Shown one piece after another: positions 8,112 through 50,577 of a DNA stretch of 64,000 nt. The translations under genes were made by a program, and so were the position numbers. Below the pieces are notes generated by a model, which was not told the DNA's origin, ran no database searches, and was given only the letters and a program-made list of their open reading frames with translations. Numbering within the stretch: position 1 is the first letter of the stretch; each line of letters begins with the position of its first letter. Origin of the DNA: Mageeibacillus sp. (lineage in GTDB: Bacteria; Bacillota; Clostridia; Saccharofermentanales; Saccharofermentanaceae); contig JAKVLB010000004.1 in assembly GCA_022484595.1 (NCBI GenBank), positions 62,001 to 126,000 of the forward strand, written 5' to 3'.

Positions 8112-8120
8112 AAGCATCTC

Positions 8121-9541: not shown

Positions 9542-9542
9542 A

Positions 9543-10445
9543 TTATTCTCCGCCCCTTCTCTTCTTCATGCTTCTTGCCGCAATTTTCGCGCTGAGGTTG
9601 ATTACAAACGTCAGAACCATAAGGATGAATGCTATCGCAAACGCGACGTCCGTCTCCCCGCGCTCTCCGGCATAGACATAGAGAGCTACCGTCAGCGTGG
9701 CTGATGATGAGTTCAGCGAACTCACAAAATCGTGAAGCACAAGACCGAATCCGGCGGTGAAGAGAAGCGCGGCAGATTCGCCGACAATTCTTCCGATTGC
9801 CAGAATTGAGCCTGTGACAATTCCGTCAATGGCATTCGGAAGCACCACAGTCCTTATTGCATGCCACCTTCCCGCGCCCATCGCACGCGCGCCTTCCCTG
9901 AAGCTGTCAGGAACCGTCTTAAGGCTTTCCTGCGTCGTTCTGACTATTGTCGGCATTATCATCATGACAAGTGTAAGCGATCCGGCAAGAACGCCCTGTT
10001 TGAGCCCGAACAGCTGCGTAAAAACGAGCATTCCGACGAGACCGTAGATAATGGATGGTATTCCGGTCAGTGTCTCTGTGGCAAATTCGATAATTGCAAC
10101 AACCGTTTTGTTTCCGGCATATTCCGTCAGGTAAATCGCCGCTCCTACACTTATCGGAAGAGCTACAAGCATAGTCAGGATAATCATATAGACGGTGTTC
10201 AGAATGTTCGGGAGAATGCCGATTGTATCCTTGATATAGCTGGTCTGCGAGGTAAGCAGCCTGCCGGTTACAAACGGGATTCCCCTTACGCTTATGTATC
10301 CGATTATCAGCACAAGAATCAGTATGGTAACAGCCGACGCCAGATACATGGCTCCCTTGAGAACACCGTTCGCGATACGCCTTGCAGATGTCAGCGAAAA
10401 ACGTTTCGACCGGCAGACTCTCACTCCTGAAAGTGTATTATCCAT
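9543..10445 (-). CDS. pstA: Phosphate ABC transporter permease PstA
   Basis: The 300-residue membrane protein has six predicted helices and the binding-protein-dependent permease loop [20 protein letters not shown], the EAA motif that contacts Pst[17 protein letters not shown] and the [13 protein letters not shown] segment are typical of PstA. GGAGG nine bases before the ATG overlaps the end of pstC. It forms the channel with PstC in the cytoplasmic membrane. Confidence 0.95.
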
Positions 10446-10448
10446 GCA

Positions 10449-11342
10449 TTACGACCTCCTTGACTTTATAAAGACGTTAAGAAAAACATTGATGAGCATT
10501 ATGAACAGAAACAATACAAGCCCTATTGAGAACAGCGCCTGACGCTGCAGTGAACCGACCGCGGCATAGCTCATCTCCGATGCAATGGCGGTGGTCATGA
10601 ACCGCACAGATTTGAGAAGTCCCGGCATATTCGCGACATTTCCGGATACCATGATAATTGCCATGGCTTCCCCTATTGCGCGTCCCACACCCAGAACAAC
10701 GGCTGTAGCGATTCCGCTTTTCGCGGCCTTGATACTGACTTTGAAGTGCGTCTCGGTCTTTGTCGCGCCGAGTGCCAGCGACGCTTCCTCATACTCTTTG
10801 GGAACAGCCCGAAGCGCGGCGTCAGAAACATTTATTATCGATGGAAGTATCATTATCGCGAGCACCACAATTGATGACAGAAGCGTGGCGCCGGAGGAAA
10901 GCCCGAAGGTGTTCTGAACCCACGGTACAAGTACAATCATACCGACAAGACCATAGACCACCGAAGGTATTCCTGCAAGAAGTTCTACCGCCGAACGAAG
11001 CACAAGTGCCGCTTTGGGAGGTGCGACCTTTGACAGATAGACAGCCGTCAATATTCCGACAGGCACACCGAGAACTATTGCACCCGCTGTTCCGTAGATA
11101 CTGGTCAGGATAAACGGCAGTATGCCGTAGCTTGGCTCTTCCGAGCTTGCGGTTGGCTGCCACTTCTGTCCGAACAGGAACTCTGCAAGTCCTATCTGCC
11201 TTATCGCCGGGATTCCGGATATTATCAGATACACGGAAATAACCAGGACAAATCCGACAGCAAGAACGCCGCACGCCATGAAAATCGCGGCGAACGTCGT
11301 CTCAATAAGCTTTTGTTTTACCAGCTTGTTCTTTGCATTCAT
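10449..11342 (-). CDS. pstC: Phosphate ABC transporter permease PstC
   Basis: A 297-residue permease with six helices, the LAGIPSVVYGLVGMIVL segment shared by PstC and PstA, and the cytoplasmic EAA loop AVPKEYEEASLALGATKTE. The periplasm-facing insert after helix 1 (FGQKWQPTASSEEPSYGILP) is the usual PstC feature. The ATG is two bases after the pstS stop, so pstS and pstC are tightly coupled even though the binding protein is normally made in excess. Confidence 0.95.
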   Translation of the reverse strand: MNAKNKLVKQKLIETTFAAIFMACGVLAVGFVLVISVYLIISGIPAIRQIGLAEFLFGQKWQPTASSEEPSYGILPFILTSIYGTAGAIVLGVPVGILTAVYLSKVAPPKAALVLRSAVELLAGIPSVVYGLVGMIVLVPWVQNTFGLSSGATLLSSIVVLAIMILPSIINVSDAALRAVPKEYEEASLALGATKTETHFKVSIKAAKSGIATAVVLGVGRAIGEAMAIIMVSGNVANMPGLLKSVRFMTTAIASEMSYAAVGSLQRQALFSIGLVLFLFIMLINVFLNVFIKSRRS

Positions 11343-11344
11343 AA

Positions 11345-12256
11345 TCAGGCTACCGGTACTGCGCCGCTCTGAGCTATAAGATCGGATGCGTCGGAAGAAG
11401 TCATATAATCGAAGAATGCCTGCGCCGGAGCGGATAATTCAACTCCGTCCTTTGTGATAAGGTTGAACGGTCTCTGGATGACATAGGTGCCGTTCGATAT
11501 GTTTTCCTCGCTGCATGTAACTCCGCCGACTGTAAGAATCTTGATTCCTTCCTGTCCCTCAACCGAGGCAAATGAAGCATATCCTATTGCATTCGGTGTA
11601 CTCTTTACCGCTTCGATAACCGCACCTGTTGATGTCAACTCCTGATTGAGTACGCAGTTGTCGGTTGTACCTGTGATTGACTCGAAACCGTCTCTCGTGC
11701 CGGATCCTGCCTCTCTTCCGATTACAGATATCTCACCTGAAGCCGAACCGTCACCGATGCCGCTCCAGTCCGTAATCTTGCCTGTATATATTGCCGCGAT
11801 ATCATCCAGACTGAGGTCTTCTAAGGTACTGTCGCCGTTTACGATAATCGCAATTCCGTCAAGAGCAAGCGTCGTCGCTGTCAGACCGGTCTCCTCTGCT
11901 TTTAGATTTCTTGAAGCAAGTCCTATATCGCAGGTTCCGTTGCTGACCGATTCGATTCCCGTTCCTGAACCGGTTGCATCATAGGTTACCGTTACACCCG
12001 GGTTGTCATTCATAAACTGTTCCGACAGAATTCCGATGACGCTCTCCATTGAAGTCGAACCATTGGTGGATACGGAACCTTCCAGTGACGCCGCGTCGGT
12101 GCTTCCTGCATTGCCTGTATCGCCTGCTGCGGTCGTGCTGCCCGATACGCTTGTGCCGTTCGCGCCTGCTGAAGAACACCCGGCAAAGGACGCCGCCATG
12201 CAAAGCGCCATTGCAAGCGCAATTCCGTTTTCTGCCATTTTACTCATTTTCTTCAT
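11345..12256 (-). CDS. pstS: Phosphate-binding lipoprotein PstS
   Basis: The start at 12256 has AGGAG seven bases upstream and gives a proper lipoprotein signal (MKKMSKMAENGIALAM then lipobox AASFAGC). After a Ser/Thr/Gly-rich linker the mature 303-residue precursor shows the PstS phosphate-binding signatures STNGSTSMESV, TGSGTGIESV and REAGSGTRDGFES. It captures phosphate outside the membrane and delivers it to PstCA. It is the first gene of a seven-gene operon and stands behind a Pho-box-like repeat. Confidence 0.96.
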   Translation of the reverse strand: MKKMSKMAENGIALAMALCMAASFAGCSSAGANGTSVSGSTTAAGDTGNAGSTDAASLEGSVSTNGSTSMESVIGILSEQFMNDNPGVTVTYDATGSGTGIESVSNGTCDIGLASRNLKAEETGLTATTLALDGIAIIVNGDSTLEDLSLDDIAAIYTGKITDWSGIGDGSASGEISVIGREAGSGTRDGFESITGTTDNCVLNQELTSTGAVIEAVKSTPNAIGYASFASVEGQEGIKILTVGGVTCSEENISNGTYVIQRPFNLITKDGVELSAPAQAFFDYMTSSDASDLIAQSGAVPVA

Positions 12257-12314
12257 ATACATTCTCCTTCCGTTTGAGAGCCTGATCGTTTCCTCAGGTT
12301 CTATCTGATGCAAT

Positions 12315-12377
12315 TCTATAAAATGAGAATCAAATCCATTATCCGGAGATTGTAAAATGTATGTAATGTCAGATGTA
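12315..12377 (-). promoter_or_regulatory. Candidate Pho box and promoter of the pst-pho operon
   Basis: Reading the minus strand, TTACAT (12361-12366) and TTACAA (12350-12355) are spaced exactly 11 bases start to start, and a weaker third copy TACATC (12372-12377) continues the register. Low-GC Gram-positive PhoP binds TT(A/T)ACA direct repeats at 11-bp spacing. A TATAGA element at 12315-12320 about 30 bases further on could be the -10. The arrangement, directly before pstS, supports phosphate-starvation control. Confidence 0.6.
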
Positions 12378-12382
12378 TAGCG

Positions 12383-12419
12383 CAAACAAAGCCCCTCCTC
12401 CCTCAACAGGAGAAGGGGC
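12383..12419 (-). terminator. Rho-independent terminator between the membrane-protein gene and pstS
   Basis: On the minus strand GCCCCTTCTCC (12409-12419) pairs with GGAGGAGGGGC (12391-12401), an 11-bp stem with one wobble, followed by TTTGTTTG. It ends the transcript of the upstream membrane protein gene just before the pst promoter. Confidence 0.8.
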
Positions 12420-12486
12420 AATAATCCGTAGCCCGTTCAAACCGTACCGCTGTAACAGTTCCGGTTCGAAAATCAGAATCTGTAAG

Positions 12487-19828: not shown

Positions 19829-21064
19829 TTATCCTTTTGTTGTTTTTCGCTGACCGGCATCAATCATGTACTGAACTATGGATTCCGCGGCATGTCCTCT
19901 GTTCTGCCATGCCAGTTCGCCTGCCTTCTGTATGCCTTCTCTATAGTCCCCGCCTTCTATTACAGAATCAATTCTCGCCTTCATATCCTCAAAATCTTTC
20001 TCATCTATCTCGCAGCCGATTGACGGCAGAACCTTGAACTTCCACAGCGGCTCTTCAATCCACGCCGCGTCATACACCCCGTTGTCAAAGTCCGGCGACG
20101 TATACATCACAGGCTTTCCAAACAGCAGCGTAAAGTCGAAAATGATGCCCGAGAAATCTGTAACCAGCAGATCTGCCCTGTTGAGCACATCGAAATTGTC
20201 ATTGTCGCTGTTCCACTCAAAGTCATCAGATTCAGGATATTTTCGTCTCAGCTCATCAATTATTTCCTTGTCCGCCGTATATGACTGAGGATGCGGACGG
20301 AATACGATTCTGTAGCCTGTGGCAACCAGAGAATCAATGATTCTGCTTCCGTATCTGTGCAGCAGGCCGCTCGGTCCCCATGAAGGAGCAAGAAGAATCA
20401 CGGGCTTCGTGTTATCAGGTCTGACAGTCCCGGCGAGCCTTTCATAAACAGTGTCAAAATACGTGAGACCGACTACCCTGACATCCTTTGGAGCGAGATT
20501 GCGCTTCTGCTCAAGAAGTCTTATCTCATCCACATGGACTGAACCCGAGACCAGAACAGCATCATAGAAATCAAGGCCGAACATTCTGTATCCTGCGCAT
20601 GTATCAGCCGCGTGAAGCACATGAACATAGCAGTCCACATTTCTTGAACGTTTCCACTGCAAAACGTCCAGTCCGGGAGTTGTCGCAAGAAATACGCCGG
20701 CAGCAGCCGAATTAAGCTTCACTATTCCTTTGTTGCCTTTGCCTATATATTCCGCATGTACATGCCTGTAATCCATGGCGAGAATCGGGTCGTCAACGGA
20801 CGATGTCCAGAATGTGACGTCCGTTCCGCGCTTCTCAAACTCGTTTAAAATGGGGACGAACACATTCGCGTATCTTTTATCATCCGAATAGATAAGATAA
20901 GGAATTCTGTTCTTTTTATCATTCTTTACGCCCCGGCCTCCGCTGACAAGAAACTTAATCTTTACAAACAGCATCCTGACGAAGAAAGCTGCGGCGAGGA
21001 ATATTCCAACAATGATCGAGAACAGCATACTTCCTGTCGCAGGATCTATATACAACTGCATCAT
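19829..21064 (-). CDS. CDP-glycerol glycerophosphotransferase-like protein
   Basis: The product (about 411 residues) begins MMQLYIDPATGSMLFSIIVG, a membrane anchor typical of this group in Clostridia, followed by a glycosyltransferase-B fold. LLAPSWGPSGLLHRYG, FRPHPQ and LVTDFSGIIFDFTLLFGKPV are the signatures of the CDP-glycerol:poly(glycerophosphate) glycerophosphotransferase (TagB/TagF-type) family, which moves a phospho-alcohol from a CDP carrier to a wall or lipid polymer. The start is uncertain: 21064, 21061 or 21085, none with a strong Shine-Dalgarno. It diverges from the nucleotidyltransferase fusion, which could supply its CDP-activated donor. Confidence 0.85.
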   Translation of the reverse strand: MMQLYIDPATGSMLFSIIVGIFLAAAFFVRMLFVKIKFLVSGGRGVKNDKKNRIPYLIYSDDKRYANVFVPILNEFEKRGTDVTFWTSSVDDPILAMDYRHVHAEYIGKGNKGIVKLNSAAAGVFLATTPGLDVLQWKRSRNVDCYVHVLHAADTCAGYRMFGLDFYDAVLVSGSVHVDEIRLLEQKRNLAPKDVRVVGLTYFDTVYERLAGTVRPDNTKPVILLAPSWGPSGLLHRYGSRIIDSLVATGYRIVFRPHPQSYTADKEIIDELRRKYPESDDFEWNSDNDNFDVLNRADLLVTDFSGIIFDFTLLFGKPVMYTSPDFDNGVYDAAWIEEPLWKFKVLPSIGCEIDEKDFEDMKARIDSVIEGGDYREGIQKAGELAWQNRGHAAESIVQYMIDAGQRKTTKG

Positions 21065-21125
21065 CTGACAAACAACCCCATACATATATTATTGAGTTTC
21101 AATCTACCACAACGTCTTTTGTTTG

Positions 21126-21154
21126 TCGACAACGGACACTTATTCGAGTACAAT
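21126..21154 (+). promoter_or_regulatory. Candidate sigma-A promoter of the fusion gene
   Basis: TCGACA (21126-21131) and TACAAT (21149-21154) are 17 bases apart, each one mismatch from consensus, and stand 27 bases before the start codon of the nucleotidyltransferase-aminotransferase gene. Confidence 0.6.
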
Positions 21155-21181
21155 CAGACTATTACAAAAAGGAGAATAAAA

Positions 21182-23008
21182 ATGCAGGCTATGATTCTCG
21201 CCGCCGGGATGGGCAAACGTCTCAAGCACTTAACGCAGGACCGGACGAAGTGCATGATTGAAGTCAACGGAGTGTCCCTGATCAGACGTTTGCTTGGCAT
21301 TCTGGATCAGGAAAATCTCACAAGAATCATTATTGTTGACGGCTACATGGGCGCTAATCTCAAAGAATATGTTTTGAGTCTGGACGTCACAACGCCGGTT
21401 GTTTTCGTTGATAATCCTGTATACTCCACAACCAACAATATCTATTCTCTCGCACTTGCGAGAGACTGTCTTGTACAGGACGATACGCTCCTGTTTGAAT
21501 CCGACCTGATTTTCGATAAGAGCATCGTTGACAGACTGATAAATGACCCGAGGCCTTCTCTGTCGGTAGTTGACAAGTTCGAGAGCTGGATGGACGGAAC
21601 CTGTCTCAAGCTCGACAGCAACGATCGTATCGTAGATTTTATCCCGGGCAGGTATCTTGATTTTAAGCAGACAACTAACTACTACAAGACCGTAAATATA
21701 TATAAGTTCTCAAAAGAATTCTCCGCCCGGACCTACGTTCCTTTTCTGACGGCCTACGAACAGGCGATGGGCGAGAACGAATATTATGAATCTGTAATTA
21801 AGCTGATTGCGATGCTTGATAACGTCGAGATACGTGCAATGCGGCTCGCCGGCGAGGTCTGGTACGAGATTGACGATGCCAAAGACCTTCAGACTGCCGA
21901 ATATCTTTTTACAGAAGAGGCGCAGAACAAATACAGTACATTGTCATCCCGCTATGGCGGATTCTGGCGATTTCCGAAGCTTAAGGATTTCTGCTACCTT
22001 GTAAATCCGTATTTCCCTTCTCCGAGATTCAGTGCGGAGCTCGAATCCAATTTCGACACGCTTCTCAAAGAGTATCCTTCCGGAATGAAGGTAAACAGCC
22101 TTCTTGCATCAGAGCTTTGCGATGTCTGCGAGGAACACATAATCGCAGGCAACGGCGCGGCGGAACTGATCAAGGCTCTTACAGAAAGCTGCATCAGCGG
22201 TTCTGTCGGAATTATCCGTCCGACCTTTGAAGAATATCCCAACAGACTCGGCAAAGACCGCCTGATAACCTTTACGCCGTCTGCGGAAGATTTCAGTTAC
22301 AGCGCACGGGAACTGATAGATTTCTTCTCGACACACAGACCGGACAATATTGTTCTTATCAACCCGGATAATCCGAGCGGCAGCTATATCGCGCATGACG
22401 ACCTGCTGATGCTTGCTGGCTGGTGCAGGGACAATGGCATTACGCTTGTTGTGGACGAGAGCTTCGCGGATTTCGCCGGAACAGACAAGGAACCGGGCGG
22501 TCCGTTCTCCCTGCTGTCTGACCTTTATCTCAATGTGTACCCAAATCTTATTGTCATCAAAAGCATCTCCAAATCCTACGGCGTTCCGGGCCTTCGTCTG
22601 GGTCTTCTCGCGAGTTCGGACGTCAGACTTATCGAAGCGCTCAAGAGCGATGTATCCATCTGGAACATTAATTCATTCGCGGAATTCTTCATGCAGATGT
22701 TCGGCAAGTACAAATCTGACTATTCGGCATCTTTACGGAAACTGTCAGAAGCGAGAACTGCATTTACCGAACAGCTCAGGCAGATAAATTATCTAAGAGT
22801 CTTTGACTCATCAGCAAATTACATCATGTGTGAACTGACCGGCGGACACAGAAGCAGTGAGCTCTGCGCCGGGCTGCTGGCTGACAACAATATTCTTATC
22901 AAGGATCTGTCGTCAAAGACCGGCAACGGTAAGCAGTACATCAGGATTGCGGTTCGGACGCAGGAAGAGAATACGCAGCTCGCCCGGATTCTTGCGGAAA
23001 GGGAGTAA
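21182..23008 (+). CDS. Nucleotidyltransferase-aminotransferase fusion (LicC/PntC-like plus class I/II PLP enzyme)
   Basis: The start at 21182 is fixed by AAGGAG seven bases upstream; earlier in-frame codons lie before the promoter. Of 608 residues, about 1-235 are a nucleotidyltransferase with ILAAGMGKRLKHLTQDRTKC and the metal motif LLFESDLIFD, most like phosphocholine or phosphonate cytidylyltransferases. About 260-605 form a fold-type-I aminotransferase close to HisC/CobD: INPDNPSGSY, VDESFADF, and the PLP lysine in SISKSYGVPGLRLG. Such fusions are known for activating 2-aminoethylphosphonate-like compounds, but no PEP mutase is in the window. CobD-like domains can also decarboxylate a phospho-amino acid. 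The exact substrate is open. Confidence 0.88.
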   Translation: MQAMILAAGMGKRLKHLTQDRTKCMIEVNGVSLIRRLLGILDQENLTRIIIVDGYMGANLKEYVLSLDVTTPVVFVDNPVYSTTNNIYSLALARDCLVQDDTLLFESDLIFDKSIVDRLINDPRPSLSVVDKFESWMDGTCLKLDSNDRIVDFIPGRYLDFKQTTNYYKTVNIYKFSKEFSARTYVPFLTAYEQAMGENEYYESVIKLIAMLDNVEIRAMRLAGEVWYEIDDAKDLQTAEYLFTEEAQNKYSTLSSRYGGFWRFPKLKDFCYLVNPYFPSPRFSAELESNFDTLLKEYPSGMKVNSLLASELCDVCEEHIIAGNGAAELIKALTESCISGSVGIIRPTFEEYPNRLGKDRLITFTPSAEDFSYSARELIDFFSTHRPDNIVLINPDNPSGSYIAHDDLLMLAGWCRDNGITLVVDESFADFAGTDKEPGGPFSLLSDLYLNVYPNLIVIKSISKSYGVPGLRLGLLASSDVRLIEALKSDVSIWNINSFAEFFMQMFGKYKSDYSASLRKLSEARTAFTEQLRQINYLRVFDSSANYIMCELTGGHRSSELCAGLLADNNILIKDLSSKTGNGKQYIRIAVRTQEENTQLARILAERE

Positions 23009-23010: not shown

Positions 23011-25374
23011 TCAGAGCAGACCCATTCCTGTGGCGGCTGTGATTGCTTCAGCTTTGTTTTTCGCATTGAGCTTCTTATAATTCTCCCTGATATGGTACTT
23101 TACCGCCGGAACCTTCATACCGAGCTGTTCTGCAATCTGTTCAACAGTGCATCCGCCCGCCTGAAGCTTCAGAATGCGAAGTGCCGTAGTGCTGATTCCG
23201 GGCGCGGACTGCGATACCTTTGAATTCATTCTCTGAGGATACTTAAGCGCCACAACCTGCGTCGCCTCGTATACGCTGTCGACAAATTCCTCTCCTATTT
23301 CGGGATCCTTCCTTAACCGCTCTCTTGACAGCATCAGCATATCGAATACGGCAGCACCCTGTTCCGCGACCATCGCGACAAAATGATAGTGGCTGAGCTC
23401 ACGCATAACACTTGCAAATCCCGGCTCCCACTTATGACCGGTGCGATAGTCTATTATCGCAGCCAGAAGCTCGAGCTTCATCTTTATGTACGGGCGGTGA
23501 CATACTTCCGCGTAGTACTGCATCTTGCCCATAAGCTCAAGCGCAGCCATATATCTGCCCGTGGCGATAAGCGCCTCAATCTTCGTCATATAAGTATAAC
23601 GGTGCAACAGGAAAAACTCGTCCGCATCGCCCGGGCCGTCCGCCAGCCAGCTGTCTATGACTTCCATGTTCATATCATAGATTGCAGCACGGCAGAACAT
23701 ACAATCGATATTATTAACAATCCTGTCCTGTCCGGCAAGAACGGCTTTCTGGCGAAACGACGTTAGCAGTTCCCTTGCAGACTCAAGTTCGCCGTTAACT
23801 ATATAAAGACGTGCGGTTATGCCTACGGCAGCAAAAGCAATCTCCAGTTTGCCCTTGCGGTCAGTCTCTATGCTGACGCGAGAGAGACGCTGAAGAACTT
23901 CCTGATAGTCATGGCCTTTCTCATAGAAACTCTCGCCAAGCGCCTCGTTGACCAGCCCCACTCCGCCTTTACCTAAAGCAATGCTTACAGGCTTGCCGTA
24001 TTTGGCGGCAATCTCTGTGTCGCGAAGCGACCAGTCGCTGAAGTCCTTTCCGCCCGTCATTATTGAAGGCATATTGTTGGTAATTGAGAAATCAGTGATA
24101 AAGAAATTGCCGGTCTCCACCTTGAACAGATTCGCAAGAAGCTTCACGACACTGTTTGACTCGCGGTGCGGCATGGCAATATCAAGATAAGCCAGGCTTC
24201 CGATTGCTTCACGCTTCTGTTCACCCTTAGCTGTTTTGGCAAATTTGTCGATTTCAGAACACCAGTACTCACTGCTGTCAAAATCCATGAGAAGTGAATT
24301 GAGCATTGCCATCGCGGTCATAAGCTGGATGCTCTTCTTGATCTCATCTTCAGGAATCTCATAGTAATACTTGCGCATCTCGTAGAAATGCCCGTTTCCC
24401 GGATTCTTTTTCGCGTTCTTTATAAGAAGCCCGCTTATCTTCTCCATGTGGTTGGCTTTCTCATACATTTTGAGCGCTTCAAGCTCAATATCCTTCTGCT
24501 CATACCATTCTCCGGCGCGGTAGGCACACTCCTTCAGTTCTTCATCAGGAATATTGCGCTGCGCATACTTCCTGATTGCCGTTAGCCCCGGCTCTTTGAT
24601 TCTGTATGTGTCCCCGCTGAGCTCGAAAAAGTTGGCGGACTCAACCGCCTTCCTGATAATCTCCTCGGTATTGTCAAACCCCGTGACAACCTTGGCCAAA
24701 GGAACGGTGAATTTGTCGACTACGCTGATTTTTGACACGAATTCCGACAGATCCCCTGCATATTGCGGAGCTACATCGTTCATAAGACGATCTATATACT
24801 GCTCTTTGTTGCGTTCGAATGTGTTGTCAAACGACACTCCGGACTGTATGACCTCGGCGGCTCTGTTAATGGCATAACCGTTACCCTCTGAGGTCTCGAC
24901 CAGCCTGTGAAGCTCATCGTCGCTCAGTCTGATTCCGTACATTCCCATAAGCCTCTCGGACAGTCTCGCGTCGAGCGCCAGGTCGTGTTCCTCAATAAGC
25001 ATGAACCGGCGTTCAAAATTAGACCTGGCAAGCCATTCCGGAACTACTCCGCGGCTTATCATGATTACCCACGCCGCACGGTTCCTGGTAAGATCACTTA
25101 TCTTTTCCTTAAGTTCCGAACGTCCCAGAAGCTGAATATCGTCGAAAACGAGAACCGACAGCTTCTTCTTCCTCGACTCATTCGGTATGTTTATACTGAT
25201 TTCCGCCGAGTCATTACATGAAACATATGTATAATTTATTCCGCTCAGATAATCCCTGACAAAAGCTGTCTTTCCGAAGCCTGTGGCACCGTAGATAAAT
25301 ACAGGCTGCCCCTGCGCCCTTGCAATCTCAATTTTACGAAGCGCAGCCTTGGGCTGAATATAGAAATCAGACAT
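23011..25374 (-). CDS. MalT-like LuxR-family ATP-dependent regulator
   Basis: The ATG at 25374 (AGGAGG six bases before) gives 787 residues. An N-terminal STAND-type NTPase (about 15-250) has Walker A IYGATGFGKTAFV and Walker B VLVFDDIQLLG. A helical repeat region (about 300-680, TPR-like) follows, and a LuxR helix-turn-helix ends the protein (LKLQAGGCTVEQIAEQLGMK, then VKYHIRENYKKL). In the MalT class, an inducer binds the repeat domain, ATP promotes assembly and the HTH activates target operons. It overlaps the TVP38-type gene by eight bases and is last of the surface operon, so it likely controls that operon. Confidence 0.9.
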   Translation of the reverse strand: MSDFYIQPKAALRKIEIARAQGQPVFIYGATGFGKTAFVRDYLSGINYTYVSCNDSAEISINIPNESRKKKLSVLVFDDIQLLGRSELKEKISDLTRNRAAWVIMISRGVVPEWLARSNFERRFMLIEEHDLALDARLSERLMGMYGIRLSDDELHRLVETSEGNGYAINRAAEVIQSGVSFDNTFERNKEQYIDRLMNDVAPQYAGDLSEFVSKISVVDKFTVPLAKVVTGFDNTEEIIRKAVESANFFELSGDTYRIKEPGLTAIRKYAQRNIPDEELKECAYRAGEWYEQKDIELEALKMYEKANHMEKISGLLIKNAKKNPGNGHFYEMRKYYYEIPEDEIKKSIQLMTAMAMLNSLLMDFDSSEYWCSEIDKFAKTAKGEQKREAIGSLAYLDIAMPHRESNSVVKLLANLFKVETGNFFITDFSITNNMPSIMTGGKDFSDWSLRDTEIAAKYGKPVSIALGKGGVGLVNEALGESFYEKGHDYQEVLQRLSRVSIETDRKGKLEIAFAAVGITARLYIVNGELESARELLTSFRQKAVLAGQDRIVNNIDCMFCRAAIYDMNMEVIDSWLADGPGDADEFFLLHRYTYMTKIEALIATGRYMAALELMGKMQYYAEVCHRPYIKMKLELLAAIIDYRTGHKWEPGFASVMRELSHYHFVAMVAEQGAAVFDMLMLSRERLRKDPEIGEEFVDSVYEATQVVALKYPQRMNSKVSQSAPGISTTALRILKLQAGGCTVEQIAEQLGMKVPAVKYHIRENYKKLNAKNKAEAITAATGMGLL

Positions 25375-26086
25375 TCTTGTCCTCCTTTGTTCCGGGGTGT
25401 TTACTCTTCCAGCGGCTGTAAAATACAGTTCCGAAAATAAAAAGCACAACAGTTATCGCTATTGCTGTGAAGAAAAGCATGTAGTTCCTGTTTCCCACCG
25501 CATTTCCGCCGACAGCCGAAAGAAATATCGCCGGAAAACGTCCCACAAACGTAATTGCAATCCACACCGGAAGCTTCATATCAGTGAAGCCCACGACATA
25601 TGTAAACAGATCCTTTGGCGTTCCGGGAATAAGGAAGAACAGAAAAGCAATAAGGTCTCTCTTCTCAGAGTGCTTTAAGAATCTGACTGATTCAATCTTC
25701 TCACGTGATACAAAAAGCTCGGCAAATCTCATTCCGAACTTTCTCACCATCAGAAAAACAAATAGAGACCCCATGGTCATGGCAAGATCAGCGATTACCG
25801 CTCCGGCATATACTCCGAACACATATCCCGCGGCTATCTCAAACGGGCCACCCGGGATAATCGCCACCACAACCTGAAGAAAAATTGCCGCCATGAATGC
25901 GATTATGCTCCAGGGACTTCTGTTCCAGATGTATGTACGGAATGCCTCCGGGTCTTTTGCCATAATCAGCATGGGTCTGCAAAACTTATACGCAATAAAA
26001 CTAATCATAACAATAGCTATGATCAGCAGTGCCGTTGCCAGAATTTTTCTCTTGATTGATACTTCTTGTCTGATATTTTGCGCCAT
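25367..26086 (-). CDS. TVP38/TMEM64 (VTT/DedA-like) membrane protein
   Basis: The 239-residue membrane protein has about five helices and the VTT-domain signature: IIPGGPFEIAAGYVFGVYAG and later FFLIPGTPKDLFTYVVGFT, with the re-entrant Gly/Pro-rich loops. VTT/DedA proteins are linked to lipid scrambling and undecaprenyl-phosphate recycling in other bacteria. I took ATG 26086; a TTG at 26092 with AAGG is an alternative. It lies 66 bases after the first-listed YidC-sulfatase gene and is coupled to the LuxR regulator, so a lipid or carrier role in the same pathway is plausible. Confidence 0.86.
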   Translation of the reverse strand: MAQNIRQEVSIKRKILATALLIIAIVMISFIAYKFCRPMLIMAKDPEAFRTYIWNRSPWSIIAFMAAIFLQVVVAIIPGGPFEIAAGYVFGVYAGAVIADLAMTMGSLFVFLMVRKFGMRFAELFVSREKIESVRFLKHSEKRDLIAFLFFLIPGTPKDLFTYVVGFTDMKLPVWIAITFVGRFPAIFLSAVGGNAVGNRNYMLFFTAIAITVVLFIFGTVFYSRWKSKHPGTKEDKNV

Positions 26087-26152
26087 AGCCAATTTTAACC
26101 TTAAGACACTCCCGTTGCAACATATCCGGGGCAGCCCGTATACTGCCTGTGT

Positions 26153-28735
26153 CTACCAGTTGCCGGCATATTTCCAGTTGTCCTTGTTCCAGATATCGCT
26201 TTGCACGGTATACCAGTCCGAGTTCACAAACGTGTTTCCGTTGTTTGTATGTATATCTATATCAACATTGTCGGCAACAAACTGCGGACCTGTCTTTCCG
26301 TCTTCCGTTATCTCGTTTCCGGTAAACGGATTTACAGGGTTGCTTATCAGCCCCTCCGTTGCAAGATACGGGGTATCGGCGTTGGTCATGAATTCATCGG
26401 AAGTCGTAAACCCCGTGCTGTTGAAATCTTTTACCATAAGAACAGGCGCGAAAGCTTCCGCATCTGTCTCCACTTCCAGATCATCCTCGGAAAGCTCGTC
26501 AAATTCGCCGCTGGCGTGACCGTGATCCGACACGATGATGATTCTTGTGTTGTCATACAGATTGTTCGCCCTCAGGTAGTCAAACCAGTCGCCAAGCGCA
26601 CGGTATGACGCCATGTTGGACTCGTATTGCGCATAGTCCTCTGCGGTTTGCATGTTCATGGTTCTGCCGTTCACGGTAAATCTGCCCGTGTTGGCATTAT
26701 CGTATTCCGTGTTGTCGACTCTGTCTTCCGGCAGATACTCGGGTTCCTGAAGAAGCGCGACATCATGTGTGCTGTCGCATGTATAAAGGAGAATGTTGTT
26801 GCTCGAGCCGTCATCTATAACGGTCATATCAGCGAGTGAAGTGAGCGCGCTGTATGCTGCCTCGAATAACTGGTTATGGCCGACTGCGACAGATGTCCCG
26901 GTAAAGCTCTGCCAGCCGGACTTGGCGTCGGCATATGACAGAATGTTATATGTGCCGTTCGAGTAAATCAGCGGCTGAATCGCCACCGGAGACACTTTGA
27001 ACAATCCGTAGCACATTATATTGTGTTCAAGCATATTGTTGTAGATCGTGCCGTAGTCGGCATTCTCGTACTGATTGAAAGTGTTTGAAGCCGTAACGCC
27101 TTTGCAGTCGTCGAAAACAGACAGATCCGGAATCCACTGATACCCCGCGTATGACGGATTGATAAAGGCACAGCTGTATCCGTTGTCCGTGAAAATTGTC
27201 GGAAGAACCTTGAGCGCCTCGTTATGTTTATCGGGCAGAAGCCGGTCATCCCGTTCGTTGAGCTTTTCCGGAGTATAATCATATCCTCCGAACAGAGATG
27301 GCGTACAGTAATTTGTACATGGACCGTATGACAGGACGTTGCTGTAATATGTAAACCCATCGAACTTTGTCACAAGATCCTTATCCTCATTAAAGATATA
27401 GGGAACCATCGGTCCAACCGCACGGTCAAGCATTATTACAACAACATTCCGTCCTTCCTTTGACAGAGTAAACTGCGGTTCTTCCCGTATGGAATTGTTG
27501 ACGAAAGTCCTGTAACTGTTGTTTATCTTTGTGCTCATGTAAATACCCGCGCCGGCATAAAGAACCGACAGCGCTACTGTGATAACTACCCCGTATGTGC
27601 TGTACCTGCGCCTGAACAGATATACAAGCATCACAACCAGCAAAATAGCCAGAATATTGACGGCTATTGAAAGCGAGGAAAACTTGGGGTCGTTATTGAA
27701 TCTCAGGTACTTGTCGGTCTGCCCGAAGCCGTTGCTGAAGGTAAACGCGTTAACCGGCGCTACTATTGCCATAACAAGCATTACATATCCTGCCGTCTTT
27801 CTTGCCCTGCCGCCCATCTCAAAGTAGAAGACCAGCGGCCATAATACAAACAGCCCTATCGCTGTAAGCAGTGGCTTAATCAGATACAGCACCGGATTTG
27901 AAATAAGAAACATATTGATGAAATCCTGCGAAGCAACGGACAAAGACATGCCTGGTATCAGAAATCCCGTCAAAAGAGCCACTGAAAGACAGCTGAAAAT
28001 AAAAACAAGTCTGTCGGTTCCGGTCTCAGAAACGGTGCTGACGGATTTTCTTTTTGACGGCGGAACAAATTTAAAATACACGTTCTTTATGAGCGCGAAC
28101 AGATTGTTGAACGTCCAGTAAAGAACAAGTCCGGAAGGTGATTTATAAAGCACGGCAAAAAACACGGCGGCCATCAGATAGAGCTGTATCCGTGCGCTTC
28201 GCGGTTGACGCTTTGCATAGATGAAGCCCGATATTATGTTGATCAGCGTCATGAGAACCGGCAGAAGATTAAACCCGTGCCCTCCGATTCTGACGAGACC
28301 GTCCTGCAGGCACAGATTCGCAATCGGACCAAACGAAGCACCGACCAGACGGATATTGTTCGACAGCATATTGTATGCGGCAAGGAAAAACGGAATCTGA
28401 AGAAGAACCGGAAGAGACGTTGATATTATGCTCAGAGGTGAATATGAATTCTCACGGTAATACGCCTGAAGCATCATAACCCGCTCGTCGCCTTTGAAAT
28501 GATGCCTTATATGCTCAACCATCGGCTTCATCGCCTTCTCTTTGGCGGTTGCCGCTTCCTGAATTCTGTCAGCCTGACTGTAAAGAGGATACAGAAGAAT
28601 GTTCAGCAGAAGACTCTCAATTATCACCGTTAATCCCGGATTGGAAGTAACCTTGTTTACCTGTGAGAAAATAATCTCAAACAGAAGCTGCAACGGTCCT
28701 ATTATCAGCGAGTAGAGTAAACCCCAGATACTCAT
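26153..28735 (-). CDS. YidC/Oxa1-like domain fused to sulfatase/LTA-synthase-like domain, copy 1
   Basis: An 860-residue membrane enzyme. Residues 1-225 form a YidC-like five-helix unit (LPVLLQIPFFLAAYNMLSNN; YKSPSGLVLYWTFNNLFALI). Residues 230-400 add further helices, and about 420-860 form an alkaline-phosphatase-superfamily domain with metal/nucleophile sites in VVVIMLDRAVG (Asp about 435), YCTPSLFGGY (Thr about 477) and IIVSDHGHASGE (about 737). Where canonical YidC has its groove arginine in the first core helix, Asn45 is found, and Glu40 is nearby, so insertase activity is doubtful. LtaS-type relatives transfer phosphoglycerol or phosphoethanolamine outside the cell. It lies 20 bases downstream of its paralogue. 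Confidence 0.88.
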   Translation of the reverse strand: MSIWGLLYSLIIGPLQLLFEIIFSQVNKVTSNPGLTVIIESLLLNILLYPLYSQADRIQEAATAKEKAMKPMVEHIRHHFKGDERVMMLQAYYRENSYSPLSIISTSLPVLLQIPFFLAAYNMLSNNIRLVGASFGPIANLCLQDGLVRIGGHGFNLLPVLMTLINIISGFIYAKRQPRSARIQLYLMAAVFFAVLYKSPSGLVLYWTFNNLFALIKNVYFKFVPPSKRKSVSTVSETGTDRLVFIFSCLSVALLTGFLIPGMSLSVASQDFINMFLISNPVLYLIKPLLTAIGLFVLWPLVFYFEMGGRARKTAGYVMLVMAIVAPVNAFTFSNGFGQTDKYLRFNNDPKFSSLSIAVNILAILLVVMLVYLFRRRYSTYGVVITVALSVLYAGAGIYMSTKINNSYRTFVNNSIREEPQFTLSKEGRNVVVIMLDRAVGPMVPYIFNEDKDLVTKFDGFTYYSNVLSYGPCTNYCTPSLFGGYDYTPEKLNERDDRLLPDKHNEALKVLPTIFTDNGYSCAFINPSYAGYQWIPDLSVFDDCKGVTASNTFNQYENADYGTIYNNMLEHNIMCYGLFKVSPVAIQPLIYSNGTYNILSYADAKSGWQSFTGTSVAVGHNQLFEAAYSALTSLADMTVIDDGSSNNILLYTCDSTHDVALLQEPEYLPEDRVDNTEYDNANTGRFTVNGRTMNMQTAEDYAQYESNMASYRALGDWFDYLRANNLYDNTRIIIVSDHGHASGEFDELSEDDLEVETDAEAFAPVLMVKDFNSTGFTTSDEFMTNADTPYLATEGLISNPVNPFTGNEITEDGKTGPQFVADNVDIDIHTNNGNTFVNSDWYTVQSDIWNKDNWKYAGNW

Positions 28736-28755
28736 CTTAAGTCTTTTGCCTCCCT

Positions 28756-31341
28756 TCAGCCTCTGCCGGCATATTTCCAGTTATCCTTGTTCCAGATATC
28801 GCTTTGCACGGTATACCAGTCCGATTCGGCAAATACGGTTCCGCTGTTCGCATTGATGTCCATCAATCCGGAACTTATAATTCTCTGCGGTCCCTGCTTG
28901 TCATCCATGGTAATCTCATTGCCGGTAAAAGGATTTGTAGGATTTGAGATTATTCCTTCAGTCGCAAGGTACGGCGTATCAGCTAACGTCATAAAATCAT
29001 CCGATACGGTAAATCCATGGCTGTTAAAGTCCTTGACCATGAGAAGCGGTGTAAAAGCCTCTGCATCGACCGGCACTTCAAGATCGCTCTCCTCAAGTTC
29101 GTCAAATTCGCCGAGATTGTTGCCGTGATCGGAGACGATGATGATTCTTGTGTTGTCGTACAGATCGTTATCCCGAAGATAATCAAACCATTCGCCCAAC
29201 GCCTTGAGAGCCGCCATATCGCTCTCATAGTGCGAGTAATCCTCATCGTCATTCATTATCATCGTCCGTCCGTTAAGTGTAAATCTGTCCGTGTTCGCGG
29301 CGTCATAGGCGGTATTGTCAACGGTATCCGCGATCTCATATCCGGGTTCTGTCAGCAGTGCGGTGTCGTGCGTACAGTCGCATGTATAAAGCAGAACATT
29401 GTCGCTTGCGCCGTTATCAATTACCGTCATGTCCTTAAGCGATTTAAGCGCATAATAAGACATCTCAAAATCCATATTGTGACCCGCCGCGACCGAAGTT
29501 CCGTAAATCCTCTGTTCCGTATATTCAAGACTTTTTACCGTCATGTCGTTGTAATTTCCGTCGTCATAAAACAGCGGCTGAAGCAGAACTGCCGCTGACT
29601 TGAACAGGCTGTAACAGAACAGGTTGTGCGAGACTGTCGCGTCGTATGTGTCGCCGTAATCAATTTTGGCGTAGCGGTTGAGGGTGTTGTATGCCTTAAC
29701 CCCTTCCATATCATCGAAAACAGTCAGATCCGGAATCCACTGATACCCCGCGTATGTCGGATTGATAAAGGTACAGCTGTAATTGTTTCCGGTAAAAATT
29801 TCCGGCAGCACCGATATTGCTTCATCCTGTTTGTCGGCCAGCGACTCGTCGCTGCGTTCGTTGAGTTTTGCAGGTGTGTACTCATAACCGCCAAAGAGCG
29901 ACGGCGTGGAGAAATTCGTGTTCGGACCGAAAGAGATTGTGTTTCCGTAATATGTAAACCCGTCATACTCGTCCGTGAGACTTGCGTTATCATTAAACAG
30001 ATACGGAATCATTGGCCCCATCGCCCTGTCAAGCATTATCACCACCACATTTGTTCCCTCTTTGGACATCGTAAACTGAGGCTGCTCATCCCTTACGGAA
30101 TTACTAATAAAGTTCCTGTAGAACCTGTCGCTCGACACGGCACAGACACTGCCGGCTATGAAGAGAACCGCCGTGAGCCCTATCAGTATGATCTTCGTGA
30201 AATTTTTAAGAAGTCTTATCATGACTACAGCCATAAAGACCGCAAGAGCGCACGCAAGAAGATTGATTATTATGCTTTTCGCGGTAGAGACCGGTGTATC
30301 GTAAAACACAAGTTCCTTGCTTATAACGCCGAAATCGTTGCTGAAAAGCTGGGATGTTATCAGCATGCAGAAAAACAAAGACGTCATGACATAATTCATA
30401 GCTTTCCTGCCGCCCGCTTCCGCCGTCAGGTAGAATACCAACGGCCAGAGCACAAACAGCCCGAGACCTGACAGCGCCGATGACAGGACATAACGAAGCG
30501 GATTCACCAGATTGTAAAGGTTTATGAACTCCTGTGTTGAGATTGACAGAATAAGAGCCGGAATATAGTAGCCGACGAGCATGGCGCACGACAGGCACAC
30601 AAACAAAAAGAGCATAAAGTCCTGACGTTTCCCGCTGATTTTGCCTGCGCTCTTCTTTGGCGCAGGTTTTGCAATTCTGAAGTAAGCGTTCTTTATGAGC
30701 GCGAAAATGTTGTTGAACGTCCAGTAAAGCACCAGTCCCGACGGAGATTTATAGAGTGCCGCGAGGAAAACCGCGGCCATCAGATACAGCTGCAGTCTGA
30801 CCTTAATCGGCTGCCGGCGGGCATAGATATAACCCGACAGGATATTTATCAGCGTCATCAGCACCGGCAGAAGATTGACAGTAAACGGTCCGGCCGCAAG
30901 GAGCCCGTCCTCAAGACCTAAGTCTGATATCGGGCCGAACGGAGATCCGGCCAGAGCCGAATTTGAAGAGAGCATATTGTATGCGGCGAGGAAAAAAGGA
31001 ATCTGAAGAAGAACAGGAAGTGAGGTCTTCAATATACTTAGCGGAGAATACCCGCATTCGCGGTAATATGCCTGAAGCATCATCATTCTCTCGTCGCCTT
31101 TGAAGCTGCGCCTGATGTGCGACGTCATAGGCGCCATTGACTTCTCTTTGTCAGTAGCTGCCGCCTGAATCCTGTCTGCCTGACGGTATAGCGGATAGAG
31201 AAGGATATTGAGGAGCAGACTCTCGATAATAATCGTGAGTCCCGGATTGGCCGTCCATTTGTTTACAATTGAGAACAATATCCCAAGAACAAGCTGCAGC
31301 GGTCCGATAATCAATGTGTACAGACATGACCATAAATTCAT
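28756..31341 (-). CDS. YidC/Oxa1-like domain fused to sulfatase/LTA-synthase-like domain, copy 2
   Basis: The 861-residue tandem paralogue of the next gene has the same layout: YidC-like unit (1-225, LPVLLQIPFFLAAYNMLSSN), extra helices (to about 405) and an extracellular sulfatase-fold domain (about 425-861). Conserved catalytic positions are VVVIMLDRAMG (Asp about 437), FSTPSLFGGY (Thr about 478), the CDCTHDTALL segment and IIVSDHGNNLGE (about 738). The groove residue is again Asn45. The two copies are near-identical in motif regions and diverge most in residues 225-400, as expected for an old duplication. It starts 29 bases after the permease gene, without a strong Shine-Dalgarno. Confidence 0.88.
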   Translation of the reverse strand: MNLWSCLYTLIIGPLQLVLGILFSIVNKWTANPGLTIIIESLLLNILLYPLYRQADRIQAAATDKEKSMAPMTSHIRRSFKGDERMMMLQAYYRECGYSPLSILKTSLPVLLQIPFFLAAYNMLSSNSALAGSPFGPISDLGLEDGLLAAGPFTVNLLPVLMTLINILSGYIYARRQPIKVRLQLYLMAAVFLAALYKSPSGLVLYWTFNNIFALIKNAYFRIAKPAPKKSAGKISGKRQDFMLFLFVCLSCAMLVGYYIPALILSISTQEFINLYNLVNPLRYVLSSALSGLGLFVLWPLVFYLTAEAGGRKAMNYVMTSLFFCMLITSQLFSNDFGVISKELVFYDTPVSTAKSIIINLLACALAVFMAVVMIRLLKNFTKIILIGLTAVLFIAGSVCAVSSDRFYRNFISNSVRDEQPQFTMSKEGTNVVVIMLDRAMGPMIPYLFNDNASLTDEYDGFTYYGNTISFGPNTNFSTPSLFGGYEYTPAKLNERSDESLADKQDEAISVLPEIFTGNNYSCTFINPTYAGYQWIPDLTVFDDMEGVKAYNTLNRYAKIDYGDTYDATVSHNLFCYSLFKSAAVLLQPLFYDDGNYNDMTVKSLEYTEQRIYGTSVAAGHNMDFEMSYYALKSLKDMTVIDNGASDNVLLYTCDCTHDTALLTEPGYEIADTVDNTAYDAANTDRFTLNGRTMIMNDDEDYSHYESDMAALKALGEWFDYLRDNDLYDNTRIIIVSDHGNNLGEFDELEESDLEVPVDAEAFTPLLMVKDFNSHGFTVSDDFMTLADTPYLATEGIISNPTNPFTGNEITMDDKQGPQRIISSGLMDINANSGTVFAESDWYTVQSDIWNKDNWKYAGRG

Positions 31342-45443: not shown

Positions 45444-48400
45444 ATGGAAATGACCAGCGGGATGTTGCAGCACTTTATTGCTTTTGCGCCGGAAGATTCG
45501 GCAGTCTATCACGTCAGCAAAGACGGCGCGCTTGAGACCCTGTATCTGTCCGAGAACATTCCGTCGCTGCTGGGAATGACGCGGGAGGAATATCTCGATA
45601 TAACAAACCGTGACGCCATGGATCTTACTATTCCGGCAGACCGCGCGGGTCTTCAGGCCGTGACCGCAGCCTGCATCAGGGACCGGAAACCTATTAATTA
45701 CTTCTACCGGGTTTTCCATAAGACGAAGGGCTTCGACTGGGTTCATGTCAATGCGCATGTGTGCGCAGAGATGGACTCAAGACCGGTGATTCTGGCAAGG
45801 TTTGCGAACATGACCATGGAAGGCGGCATCTATATGCACATTCTCGATGCCTCCGACCGGAAAGTGTTTGTCATTGACCGCGGGAACTATGACGTTCTCT
45901 ATGCCAACGGACTCGCCTGCGCGGATAGTAACGGATCACGCCGGACTTTGCTTAACCGGAAATGCTATGATTTTATATGCGGCAAAGACCATCCCTGCGG
46001 CAGGTGTTCCATGTGCTCAACAGAAGACGGCTATTATAACTGTGACATAAGACACGATCTTGATACGGGGCGGTGGGAAGAAATAACAAAAAGGGGCATA
46101 TCGTGGTGCGGACACCCTTCTCTGCTCATAATGATAAAAGATATTACCCGGTCTAAGCTTTCCGAGGTCAAGGCAGAGCGCTACCGCAGGATGTACGCGG
46201 ACGCAACCCAGGAAGCAAAACTGATAGTATGGACTTATGATACTGACACTCACAGCGTGTCAATGCTCTGGGACGGCTATACCAAAGAGGTCTGCGAGAA
46301 GTATGACGTTCCACAGATTATAAAGAACATTCCTGAATCTCTTACCGGATATATCGATGAAGAAGACAGGGCAGGTTTTATCAGGCTCTATAATGATATG
46401 GACAGCGGTGCCGATCACAGTGAATGTGAATTTCATTTCAAACTGCCAAACCAGGCGCAGCCGCAATATGAACGGGTTGTGGCAGGCACGATGCTTGATG
46501 ACACCGGGAAAAAGCGTTCCGTCTATTGTATCGGGCAGAACATAACCTCTCAGAAACTTGCGCAGCTCAAGTATGACAATATGCGCAAGCAGCTTATAAA
46601 CAATCTTGCTGATGTCGCCGGAAGCTTCCAGCTTAATCTCACAAAAAATCTCTATATAAGCGGCTACAGCTGCTTTCCCGGTGTGGTCGCCGCACTTGAG
46701 CGCAGAACGGCCGATGAACATTTTGCTGCCACCGCACAGACAATTGTGGACGACAGGATCAAGAAGTCCGTATTAAGGGATTACACCTGCGCCAATCTGC
46801 TCAAGCTTTTCGGGGACGGTCAGAAAGAGCTGGCGTGCGACTATCCGGTGCGCACTTCCCGCGGCGGAATTATGTGGATTCATTCCATAATGCACATAAT
46901 GCGCAACCCTTCAACAGGAGATATCGAGGGCATTACGTATTCCAAGGACATAACCGTCCAGAAGCGCAATGCTGAGATAATCCGTCTTGCCGTCAGCGAG
47001 AACTGCGAATATGTAGGTATCATCGATATCGTGGCTGGCACCTACGAACGCCACAGCGGAACATGGATTCTGAGTGATGCTCGTGGCCAGGTATTTCCTT
47101 ACGGTTCAATCCGCGCCGACGTCGCTTCGCTTCTTCTCACCGAGGATGTGGTGAAAGACGTTCTTAAAAGAACTGACATTCCCGCAGTTATCGAAGGCCT
47201 CAGCTACGCTCCGCGCTACATTGTGTCTTACCACTGCACAAACGCGGACGATAACAGATATCAGACAAAACAGATCAGTTTCTGCTGGCTCAATGACGCT
47301 CACCGCGAGATTCTCGTGACGCAGCAGGACGTGACGGCAACTTACGAACAGGAACAGAAGAACAACCAGCAGCTCCGTCAGGCAATGCTCATGGCTGAAC
47401 ATGCGAATGATATGAAGACCGAGTTCCTCTCGAACCTGAGTCACGACATGCGAACACCGCTCAATGCGGTTCTGGGCTACACCGGTTTCGCGATGCAGTC
47501 TGATAACCCCGAAGAGATCAAAGACTATCTCAGAAAGATTGCAAAGTCCGGCAACCTTCTGCTTACACTTATCAACGATACTCTCGATCTGTCCAAGATA
47601 GAGAGCGGCAAAATCACGCTCAAGCCTGAGATTATCGGCTGCGGCGAAGCAATCAGCCGTGTTGTGGCATCGATACGTCCCGAAGCCGAAAAGAAGAACA
47701 TCAGGTTTGTGATCGACAACAGCCGCGCGGTTATGGCAACCATAAATATCGATGTCCTGCGCGTCCAGGAGATTTTCAACAACCTCCTGTCGAACGCCGT
47801 AAAGTTCACCTCTTCCGGCGGCACCATAACTCTCATTATCGAGTGCGTTAAGCTGGAGAAGAACTGCGTTCATGACCGCATTACCGTTCGCGACACCGGT
47901 TGCGGCATAAGTCCTGACTTTCTGCCCAGAATATTCGAACCGTTCACGCAGGAACGCACAGCCGAGAATGCCGGGATCGGCGGCAGCGGACTCGGACTCT
48001 CAATCGTCAAACGCCTTATAAACCTCATGGGCGGTACAATTGAAGTCAGCAGCACCCTTGGAAAAGGAACAGACTTTGTTGTCTGTCTTGATTTCGAACG
48101 TGTTGATGACAGTCTCCAGGAAAAGAGCAGACAGTCCGCCGGAACTCTGAGCCTTGACGGTCTTCACCTGCTCCTCTGCGAAGACAACGCGATGAACCGC
48201 GAGATTGCCGTCAAGCTTCTCGAATTCCGGGGAGTCAGCGCCGATATTGCAATCAACGGCCGTGAAGGGCTGACGCTTTTCGCGAACTCAAAGCCGGGTA
48301 CATATGACGCCGTTATCATGGATGTCCGAATGCCCGTAATGGACGGAATTGACGCGACAAAAGCGATCCGCTCCCTGACGCGGGAAGATGCGGAGAAAAT

Positions 48401-48560: not shown

Positions 48561-48685
48561 TCACCCTGACGGCGGACGCCTTTGAGGAAAGCGTCCGCGC
48601 GGCAAATAGCGCCGGCATTAACGACCGCATCACGAAACCTGTCGATCCGGGAAGACTTTGTGATACGCTGCTGAAGTTGGGATGA
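48557..48685 (+). pseudogene. Out-of-frame fragment of a second receiver domain
   Basis: In the frame shifted from the kinase, starting within its stop codon, 42 codons read ITLTADAFEESVRAAN then AGINDRITKPVDPGRLCDTL. This is the last third of a receiver domain (the Thr/Ala of beta 4, and Lys-Pro of beta 5), very like the end of the kinase's own receiver (IIAMTADAFDDDVQKC, AHISKPIDPETL). It is a remnant, probably from a duplicated receiver or neighbouring kinase lost by deletion. Confidence 0.75.
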
Positions 48686-48690
48686 CTCAT

Positions 48691-48716
48691 GAATCTCCTG
48701 CAAAAAGATTCTTGTT
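48691..48716 (+). terminator. Small terminator-like hairpin after the hybrid kinase
   Basis: GAATCT (48691-48696) and AGATTC (48706-48711) make a 6-bp stem with a 9-base loop followed by TTGTTT. Weak, but it is the only candidate before the island. Confidence 0.4.
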
Positions 48717-48862
48717 TCATTGGAATATCACATAATAAATGACGGTAGCAAAATAATCTCTTTCCCATTGTACAGGCGATAAATCGTCTGCGGGCAGGCA
48801 GCATCAATATCGGGATATATCTTGTATATTCAATCCTCACCTTTCACAGTCTTTATTTTCAA

Positions 48863-50567: not shown

Positions 50568-50577
50568 TTCGCGCCTC

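Follow-up and report, generated by a model that had tools for sequence, protein, structure and literature searches.

We analysed a window of 64,000 nucleotides (i.e. the whole stretch of DNA considered here) from Mageeibacillus sp., and observed two adjacent genes on its minus strand. Each of them joins a YidC/Oxa1-fold module to five more helices and then to an alkaline-phosphatase-superfamily domain, and we refer to them as YidC-sulfatase fusions. Both open reading frames are intact and complete, at 26153-28735 and 28756-31341, with a gap of 20 bases between them, and the two proteins are 61% identical to each other. A GGGAGG motif lies 13 bases 5' of the ATG of the downstream copy. The features of the locus are as follows.

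28756-31341, minus strand: YidC-sulfatase fusion, upstream copy, 861 amino acids (open reading frame, Pfam/NCBIfam)
26153-28735, minus strand: YidC-sulfatase fusion, downstream copy, 860 amino acids (open reading frame, Pfam/NCBIfam, AlphaFold2 model)
28067-28735, minus strand: YidC/Oxa1-fold module, residues 1-223 of the downstream copy (Pfam, model, structure match)
28601-28603, minus strand: Asn45 codon at the groove Arg/Lys position, downstream copy (joint alignment)
31207-31209, minus strand: Asn45 codon at the groove Arg/Lys position, upstream copy (joint alignment)
26153-28021, minus strand: five probable transmembrane helices (residues 239-415) and alkaline-phosphatase-superfamily domain (about 422-860), probably extracellular (Pfam, model)
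27314-27316, minus strand: Thr474, probable nucleophile, downstream copy (invariant in alignments A1 and A2)
26522-26527, minus strand: Asp737-His738, probable metal ligands, downstream copy (invariant in alignments A1 and A2)
25367-26092, minus strand: VTT-domain (DedA-like) membrane protein, next gene in the direction of the fusions (Pfam)
21092-23008, plus strand: LicC-type nucleotidyltransferase fused to a CobD/HisC-like PLP enzyme, role putative
19829-21085, minus strand: TagF-like CDP-alcohol phosphotransferase (PF04464) with an N-terminal YIDPATGS segment, probable cytoplasmic partner (Pfam)

The Pfam model 60KD_IMP matched the two fusions at 84.3 and 82.2 bits (cut-off 35) over residues 34-221, and the NCBIfam model TIGR03592 at 87.2 and 86.7 bits (cut-off 84.3). 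The Pfam Sulfatase model scored 27.1 bits in the downstream copy, above its cut-off of 25, and 22.5 bits in the upstream copy, below it. No LtaS- or EptA-named model was seen among the Pfam and NCBIfam matches of the two proteins. The open reading frames, these matches and the structural model agree with one another, bearing out the preliminary description of two neighbouring genes that each combine a YidC/Oxa1-like unit, extra helices and an alkaline-phosphatase-fold domain. A chance fusion or an assembly error was also considered as the source of these reading frames, and was rejected since many genomes and public records carry the fusion.

Structure prediction with AlphaFold2, which that description had suggested, was carried out on the downstream copy (from the 40-row alignment A2) and on the YidC module alone. 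The model of the downstream copy had a mean pLDDT of 88.1 and contained the YidC-core helices, the five helices (239-415) and the catalytic domain, and the module folded alone gave a pLDDT of 86.5. The module matched E. coli YidC (6al2) with a Z of 18.7 and an rmsd of 2.9 over 199 residues, and B. halodurans YidC (3wo7) with a Z of 17.7. The Z values were 17.0-18.7 for four solved YidC entries and 10.9-12.5 for four more, and the best row outside YidC/Oxa1 reached 6.3 (with 9olf chain OX, which we take to be OXA1L, counted inside the family). As modelled, the YidC part of the window fusion keeps the YidC core fold.

When the whole model was searched with Foldseek, the top matches were MCR-1, PbgA, a Vibrio parahaemolyticus protein of the alkaline-phosphatase superfamily and LtaS; these were closely followed by sulfatases and phosphonate monoester hydrolase. 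With VIA-align, the catalytic domain gave Z values of 18.8-21.4 among the matches listed (phosphonate monoester hydrolase 2w8s 21.4, LtaP 4uop 20.1, LtaS 4uoo 19.3, MCR-1 5ylc 18.9). LtaS/LtaP and EptA/MCR are among these leading, largely tied structural matches, and like them the fusions run from five helices into an alkaline-phosphatase-superfamily domain with a Thr and an Asp-His pair; unlike them, the window fusion has an extra YidC module. On sequence and model, the protein would best be described as an Oxa1-superfamily fold joined to an LtaS/EptA-like transferase, a description that implies neither insertase activity nor identity with LtaS proper.

The Asp, Thr and His motifs of the catalytic domain had been reported as intact, and the alignments agree. 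D437, T474, H657, D737 and H738 were invariant in 40/40 rows of A1 and in 40/40 rows of A2 (the two alignments have the window rows and some genomes in common and are not independent). From this conservation, Thr474 is the probable nucleophile and Asp737-His738 are probable metal ligands, with Asp437 and His657 also invariant. The first metal residue of LtaS and EptA is a Glu. Asp437, present in 40/40 fusion rows, may correspond to this first-ligand position, judging by weak alignments, and the LtaS Glu fell opposite the Asp of stand-alone sulfatase relatives (described below) in a statistically insignificant alignment.

At the position of the groove Arg, which is essential in Bacillus YidC and not in E. 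coli YidC, both window proteins carry Asn45. A joint alignment indeed placed this Asn in the Arg/Lys column, as had been claimed. The column held N 28, S 10, T 1 and G 1 in the 40 rows of A1, and N 33 and S 7 in the 40 rows of A2. Among 30 sulfatase fusions in the joint alignment it held N 24, S 2, Q 2, T 1 and G 1, so that Arg or Lys was present in 0/30 of these as against 22/23 stand-alone YidCs. All four housekeeping YidCs of the genus had Arg there, and the 19 stand-alone YidCs of the phylum had K 16, R 2 and N 1. The third YidC of the window's genome (contig C6) is stand-alone and has Arg. Since the groove charge is lost family-wide, and a separate housekeeping YidC with Arg is found in the genome, it is reasonable to regard the fused YidC part as no longer the standard insertase. 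The loss cannot, however, be what makes a transporter, since the eight YidC-TagF fusions (see below) all keep a Lys (8/8). A Glu five residues before Asn45 had been pointed out along with the Asn; it is present in both window proteins but in no other row of A1 or A2 (2/40 in each), and Glu40 as a functional swap for the groove Arg was rejected as a family feature. Four polar residues in the YidC helices (T163, N166, N210 and N211) were invariant in 40/40 rows.

We further estimated how widely the fusion is distributed. The part after YidC matched 32 of 59 genomes, i.e. 32/35 in the genus (the window's own included) and 0/24 in the other families of the order. Full matches to the C-terminal profile were seen at 72 places (a few cut by contig ends) in 17/17 Saccharofermentans genomes, with at most 10 per genome. 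In a phylum sample of 398 genomes, 24 matched; only three did so at full length (the window's own, G354 and G426), and the other 21 scored at most 38 bits. A scan of public contigs with one protein as query confirmed no relative; with alignment A1 as query, relatives turned up in at least 555 of 592 candidate stretches (relatives of the YidC part alone may be included), and 73 loci were kept. Relatives were also found in Butyrivibrio sp. INlla21, Schwartzia succinivorans, a Lachnospiraceae MAG and others. YidC-type matches, housekeeping ones included, were present in 85/85 genus genomes searched, with up to 15 per genome among the matches listed. The YidC-sulfatase proteins are a family that is multi-copy in Saccharofermentans and rare elsewhere in the phylum, with rumen and gut bacteria among its carriers.

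A phylogeny of the YidC part had also been proposed earlier. In the tree, the sulfatase-fused YidCs formed a separate clade and the TagF-fused YidCs another (each 100/100, with the bootstrap not fully settled), while a joint clade of the two kinds was neither supported nor rejected (AU p 0.498). When compared with the YidC/Oxa1 insertases (PF02096, TIGR03592), the window fusions share the five-helix core and exceed both family cut-offs, but fusions of this type differ in having no groove Arg/Lys, in being joined to a transferase, in their many copies and in their own clade. A stand-alone YidC of genome G057 (L007) with Asn at the groove was weakly placed (42/45) beside the sulfatase-fused clade, and could represent a precursor state of the sulfatase-fused YidC. 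At another locus (L080, 2679-17965), a single TagF-like gene stands immediately upstream of five consecutive YidC-sulfatase genes; tandem arrays of this kind suggest that the copies have diversified in specificity.

The window's TagF-like gene shares the strand of the fusions and lies at a distance of 5 kb from them (PF04464, 39.3 bits against a cut-off of 22.1), and its N-terminal YIDPATGS segment looks by eye like a membrane hairpin. Clustering of the open reading frames at the fetched loci placed a TagF-like gene (PF04464, with an N-terminal YIDPGTGS segment) beside many fusions. In the 17 Saccharofermentans genomes, 31 of 42 PF04464 places were within 10 kb of a YidC-sulfatase gene, where 1.3 would be expected by area, and 25 of 42 were within 3 kb (0.54 expected); of the 11 that were farther than 10 kb, two are YidC-TagF fusions. 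Counted from the fusions of these genomes, 47/72 had a PF04464 place within 10 kb and 25/72 had no such match, part of which may be explained by contig ends and diverged members. A TagF-like gene was the immediate same-strand neighbour of 73 of 140 non-redundant fusion genes (from 176 found), but these loci were partly picked for clustered copies, and the count of 42 places in 17 genomes is therefore the fairer one. Among 49 fusions with full 8-kb flanks, a TagF-like gene was present within 8 kb in 38 and absent in 11, a cytidylyltransferase gene was present in 15, and a VTT (DedA-like) gene in seven. In genome G199 a fusion is present, and no PF04464 match was found.

In the phylum sample, TagF-like proteins of the window's type (profile A4, E <= 1e-30) were found in the same three of 398 genomes as the full-length YidC-sulfatase and in no other. 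A YidC-TagF profile at E <= 1e-30 matched 19 of the 398 genomes: 13 by YidC alone, G505 over the full length, G483 and G420 (at a contig end) by a TagF part, and the window's own genome, G354 and G426 by the TagF of the window's type. In a tree of TagF proteins, the YidC-fused rows formed one clade (100/99) and the YIDPGTGS rows were grouped together (91/97), on long branches. The partner scores above the family cut-off of the TagF/TagB-type enzymes, but differs from them in carrying the YIDPGTGS segment or a fused YidC, and in the tree six further PF04464 proteins from the genus were separate from both groups.

A second arrangement, in which YidC is fused to TagF and a membrane sulfatase stands alone nearby, was observed at ten loci. 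Nine of these are Saccharofermentans loci (L071-L079), picked for open reading frames of unusual length among the matches listed in a genus-wide YidC search, and the tenth is in G505, of the same class. The sulfatase gene was adjacent at five loci (L076-L079, and G505 where the two genes overlap by four bases) and about 2 kb off at the other five (L071-L075). Pfam found both the YidC and the TagF domain in 4/4 YidC-TagF fusions tested (L071, L078, L079, L193), and the sulfatase domain in 3/3 stand-alone sulfatases tested (L071, L078, L193). Two genomes, G269 and G286, contain both kinds of fusion. When the stand-alone sulfatases (12 rows) were compared with the fused ones using hhalign, the probability was 99.8% (E 4e-29, 400 columns), and judged by these profiles the two are homologous through the helices and the catalytic domain. 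At L193 (6781-9051), the stand-alone sulfatase beside a YidC-TagF fusion has a YIDP segment near its N-terminus, a single case which may point to membrane modules having been swapped in both directions. The component domains are already known; the YidC-sulfatase and YidC-TagF fusions, and their alternation, were found in no report among the open-licence PMC papers searched.

LtaS and the phosphoethanolamine transferases hand over head groups from lipid donors outside the cell, and in the usual YidC topology the C-terminus is inside. If the YidC modules keep this topology, the sulfatase part (after its five further helices) would be outside and TagF would be cytosolic. A YidC-like module joined either to an enzyme that probably moves phospho-groups outside or to its likely inside partner suggests that it passes building blocks of surface polymers across the membrane. 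We propose, at a probability of about 0.45, that the TagF-like enzyme makes the building block inside, the YidC-fold module passes it and the sulfatase-type transferase uses it on the outer side. Within the cytosol, a small alcohol phosphate or phosphonate would be activated by a cytidylyltransferase, and the TagF-like enzyme would move the group off CMP and onto a lipid or a lipid-linked acceptor. The YidC/Oxa1-fold module would then let the head group cross the bilayer, and outside, the five-helix sulfatase-type domain would take the group on its Thr and hand it to the growing polymer. The computed basis consists of the domains, the conservation of the active site, the loss of groove charge in the sulfatase fusions, the TagF association, the two kinds of fusion and, at some loci, the phosphonate genes; from these we infer the topology, the substrates, the passage through the groove and the joint action of the three parts. 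The preliminary description had taken the YidC part for a channel or an anchor that feeds the transferase. This was partly supported: the feeding gains weight from the TagF-like partner and from the alternative arrangement with a YidC-TagF fusion and a stand-alone sulfatase, with an anchor or a dedicated insertase as less likely readings.

More tentatively, the insertase fold may have become a dedicated flippase for head-group donors, with a self-contained line of making, flipping and using that builds phosphate- or phosphonate-decorated surface polymers and that evolved in two fusion arrangements. The substrates would then be a CMP-activated alcohol phosphate or aminoethylphosphonate. To our knowledge, lipid scrambling has not been described as the natural task of the Oxa1/YidC fold in any system. 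Purified YidC and other Oxa1 proteins do scramble lipids, according to a preprint (PMC10491306) that used E. coli YidC in proteoliposomes. In the fusions of one lineage, the fold is joined to an enzyme on one face of the membrane, and in those of another lineage to the likely partner of this enzyme on the opposite face, and the idea of the insertase fold as a lipid or polymer gate becomes testable in cultured bacteria.

We prefer the reading in which the module passes head groups, because a module that bridges inside and outside could join either enzyme, and both joins exist. Counting against it are the fusions with no TagF-like gene nearby, genome G199 with its lack of a PF04464 match, the AEP locus of G483 (see below), where YidC was not seen, and the missing PEP mutase of the window's genome. 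Alternatively, the module may serve only as an anchor or scaffold that keeps the sulfatase (or TagF) membrane-bound or within a complex, without moving anything. The lost groove charge of the sulfatase fusions would fit such an anchor, as would the common arrangement, where TagF has a short YIDPGTGS segment in place of YidC, and the genome G483, which manages without a fused YidC. However, the sulfatase part already owns five helices, the four invariant polar residues of the YidC helices (which need not line the groove) have been kept, and neither a whole YidC core nor its attachment to either of two probably cooperating enzymes is needed for a bare anchor; we regard this explanation as rather unlikely.

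Less likely still, the module could be a dedicated insertase that continues to insert proteins, for example the transferase to which it is fused, or small membrane proteins that belong to the polymer machinery. The full YidC fold is kept in the model, Asn at the groove site is also seen in one of the 19 stand-alone YidCs of the phylum, and YidC is present in a pull-down list of the related transferase MCR-1 (a long list with many ribosomal proteins, PMC7868338). Yet there are up to ten fusion copies per genome, often at polymer-type loci, a housekeeping YidC with Arg is also in the genome, and none of the 30 sulfatase fusions has Arg or Lys in the groove column. To the same degree improbable is that the TagF, cytidylyltransferase and phosphonate genes are the cargo of variable surface-polysaccharide islands and that the fusion alone uses ordinary phospholipid donors. 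Glycosyltransferase- and nucleotide-sugar-type genes were also seen by eye at several loci, and the 11 of 49 fully flanked fusions without a TagF-like neighbour are consistent with this; but the association of TagF with the fusions is beyond chance, the fusion and the window-type TagF occur in the same three genomes of the sample, and the YidC-TagF fusion exists.

As to the chemistry, L051 encodes a PEP mutase (393 bits, cut-off 320) and a phosphonopyruvate decarboxylase (450 bits, cut-off 312). At L195, genes for the fusion and for TagF-like, LicC-like, aminoethylphosphonate (AEP) transaminase (447 bits, cut-off 361), PEP mutase (411) and decarboxylase (474) proteins stand in a row, and the Schwartzia locus L197 has the same genes by similarity, with the transaminase assigned by eye. 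Rice et al. (2019) described the CMP-activation of AEP and called the later tailoring steps enigmatic (PMC6697681). The PEP mutase, decarboxylase, AEP transaminase and CMP-activating-type enzyme of these PntC/AEP phosphonyl tailoring loci are present at some fusion loci, and a term search of the text of that paper gave no YidC, sulfatase or glycerophosphotransferase. The fusion loci offer candidates for the steps after CMP-aminoethylphosphonate in surface phosphonate decoration. In G483, AEP genes occur together with TagF-like and sulfatase-like genes, and the 15.5 kb that were read showed no YidC; this chemistry can therefore do without YidC in some places.

The PEP mutases of L051 and L195 lie in genomes other than the window's, and phosphonate synthesis as a role in the window's genome (G000, 99.13% complete) was not supported, as no PEP mutase match was found in it. 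An amino-alcohol other than AEP would be likelier here, because the local enzyme is the LicC-type/CobD-like fusion, a possible supplier of a CDP-amino-alcohol. Its reading frame at 21092-23008 opens at a TTG, but translation likely begins at an ATG 90 bases further on. No paper on a serine-phosphate decarboxylase precedent from Campylobacter capsules came up in a literature search. DedA proteins are lipid transporters, and for this reason the VTT gene at 25367-26092 may share the task of the fusions.

Two other regions of the window were annotated by eye. Positions 5704-12421, some 14 kb from the fusions, hold a phosphate regulon-like run (PhoR/PhoB-like, PhoU-like and a pst-type transporter). 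Positions 48000-64000 have a lower G+C (0.37-0.43, against 0.46-0.50 elsewhere) and transposase-, restriction-, HNH- and helicase-like reading frames, and look like a mobile or defence island.
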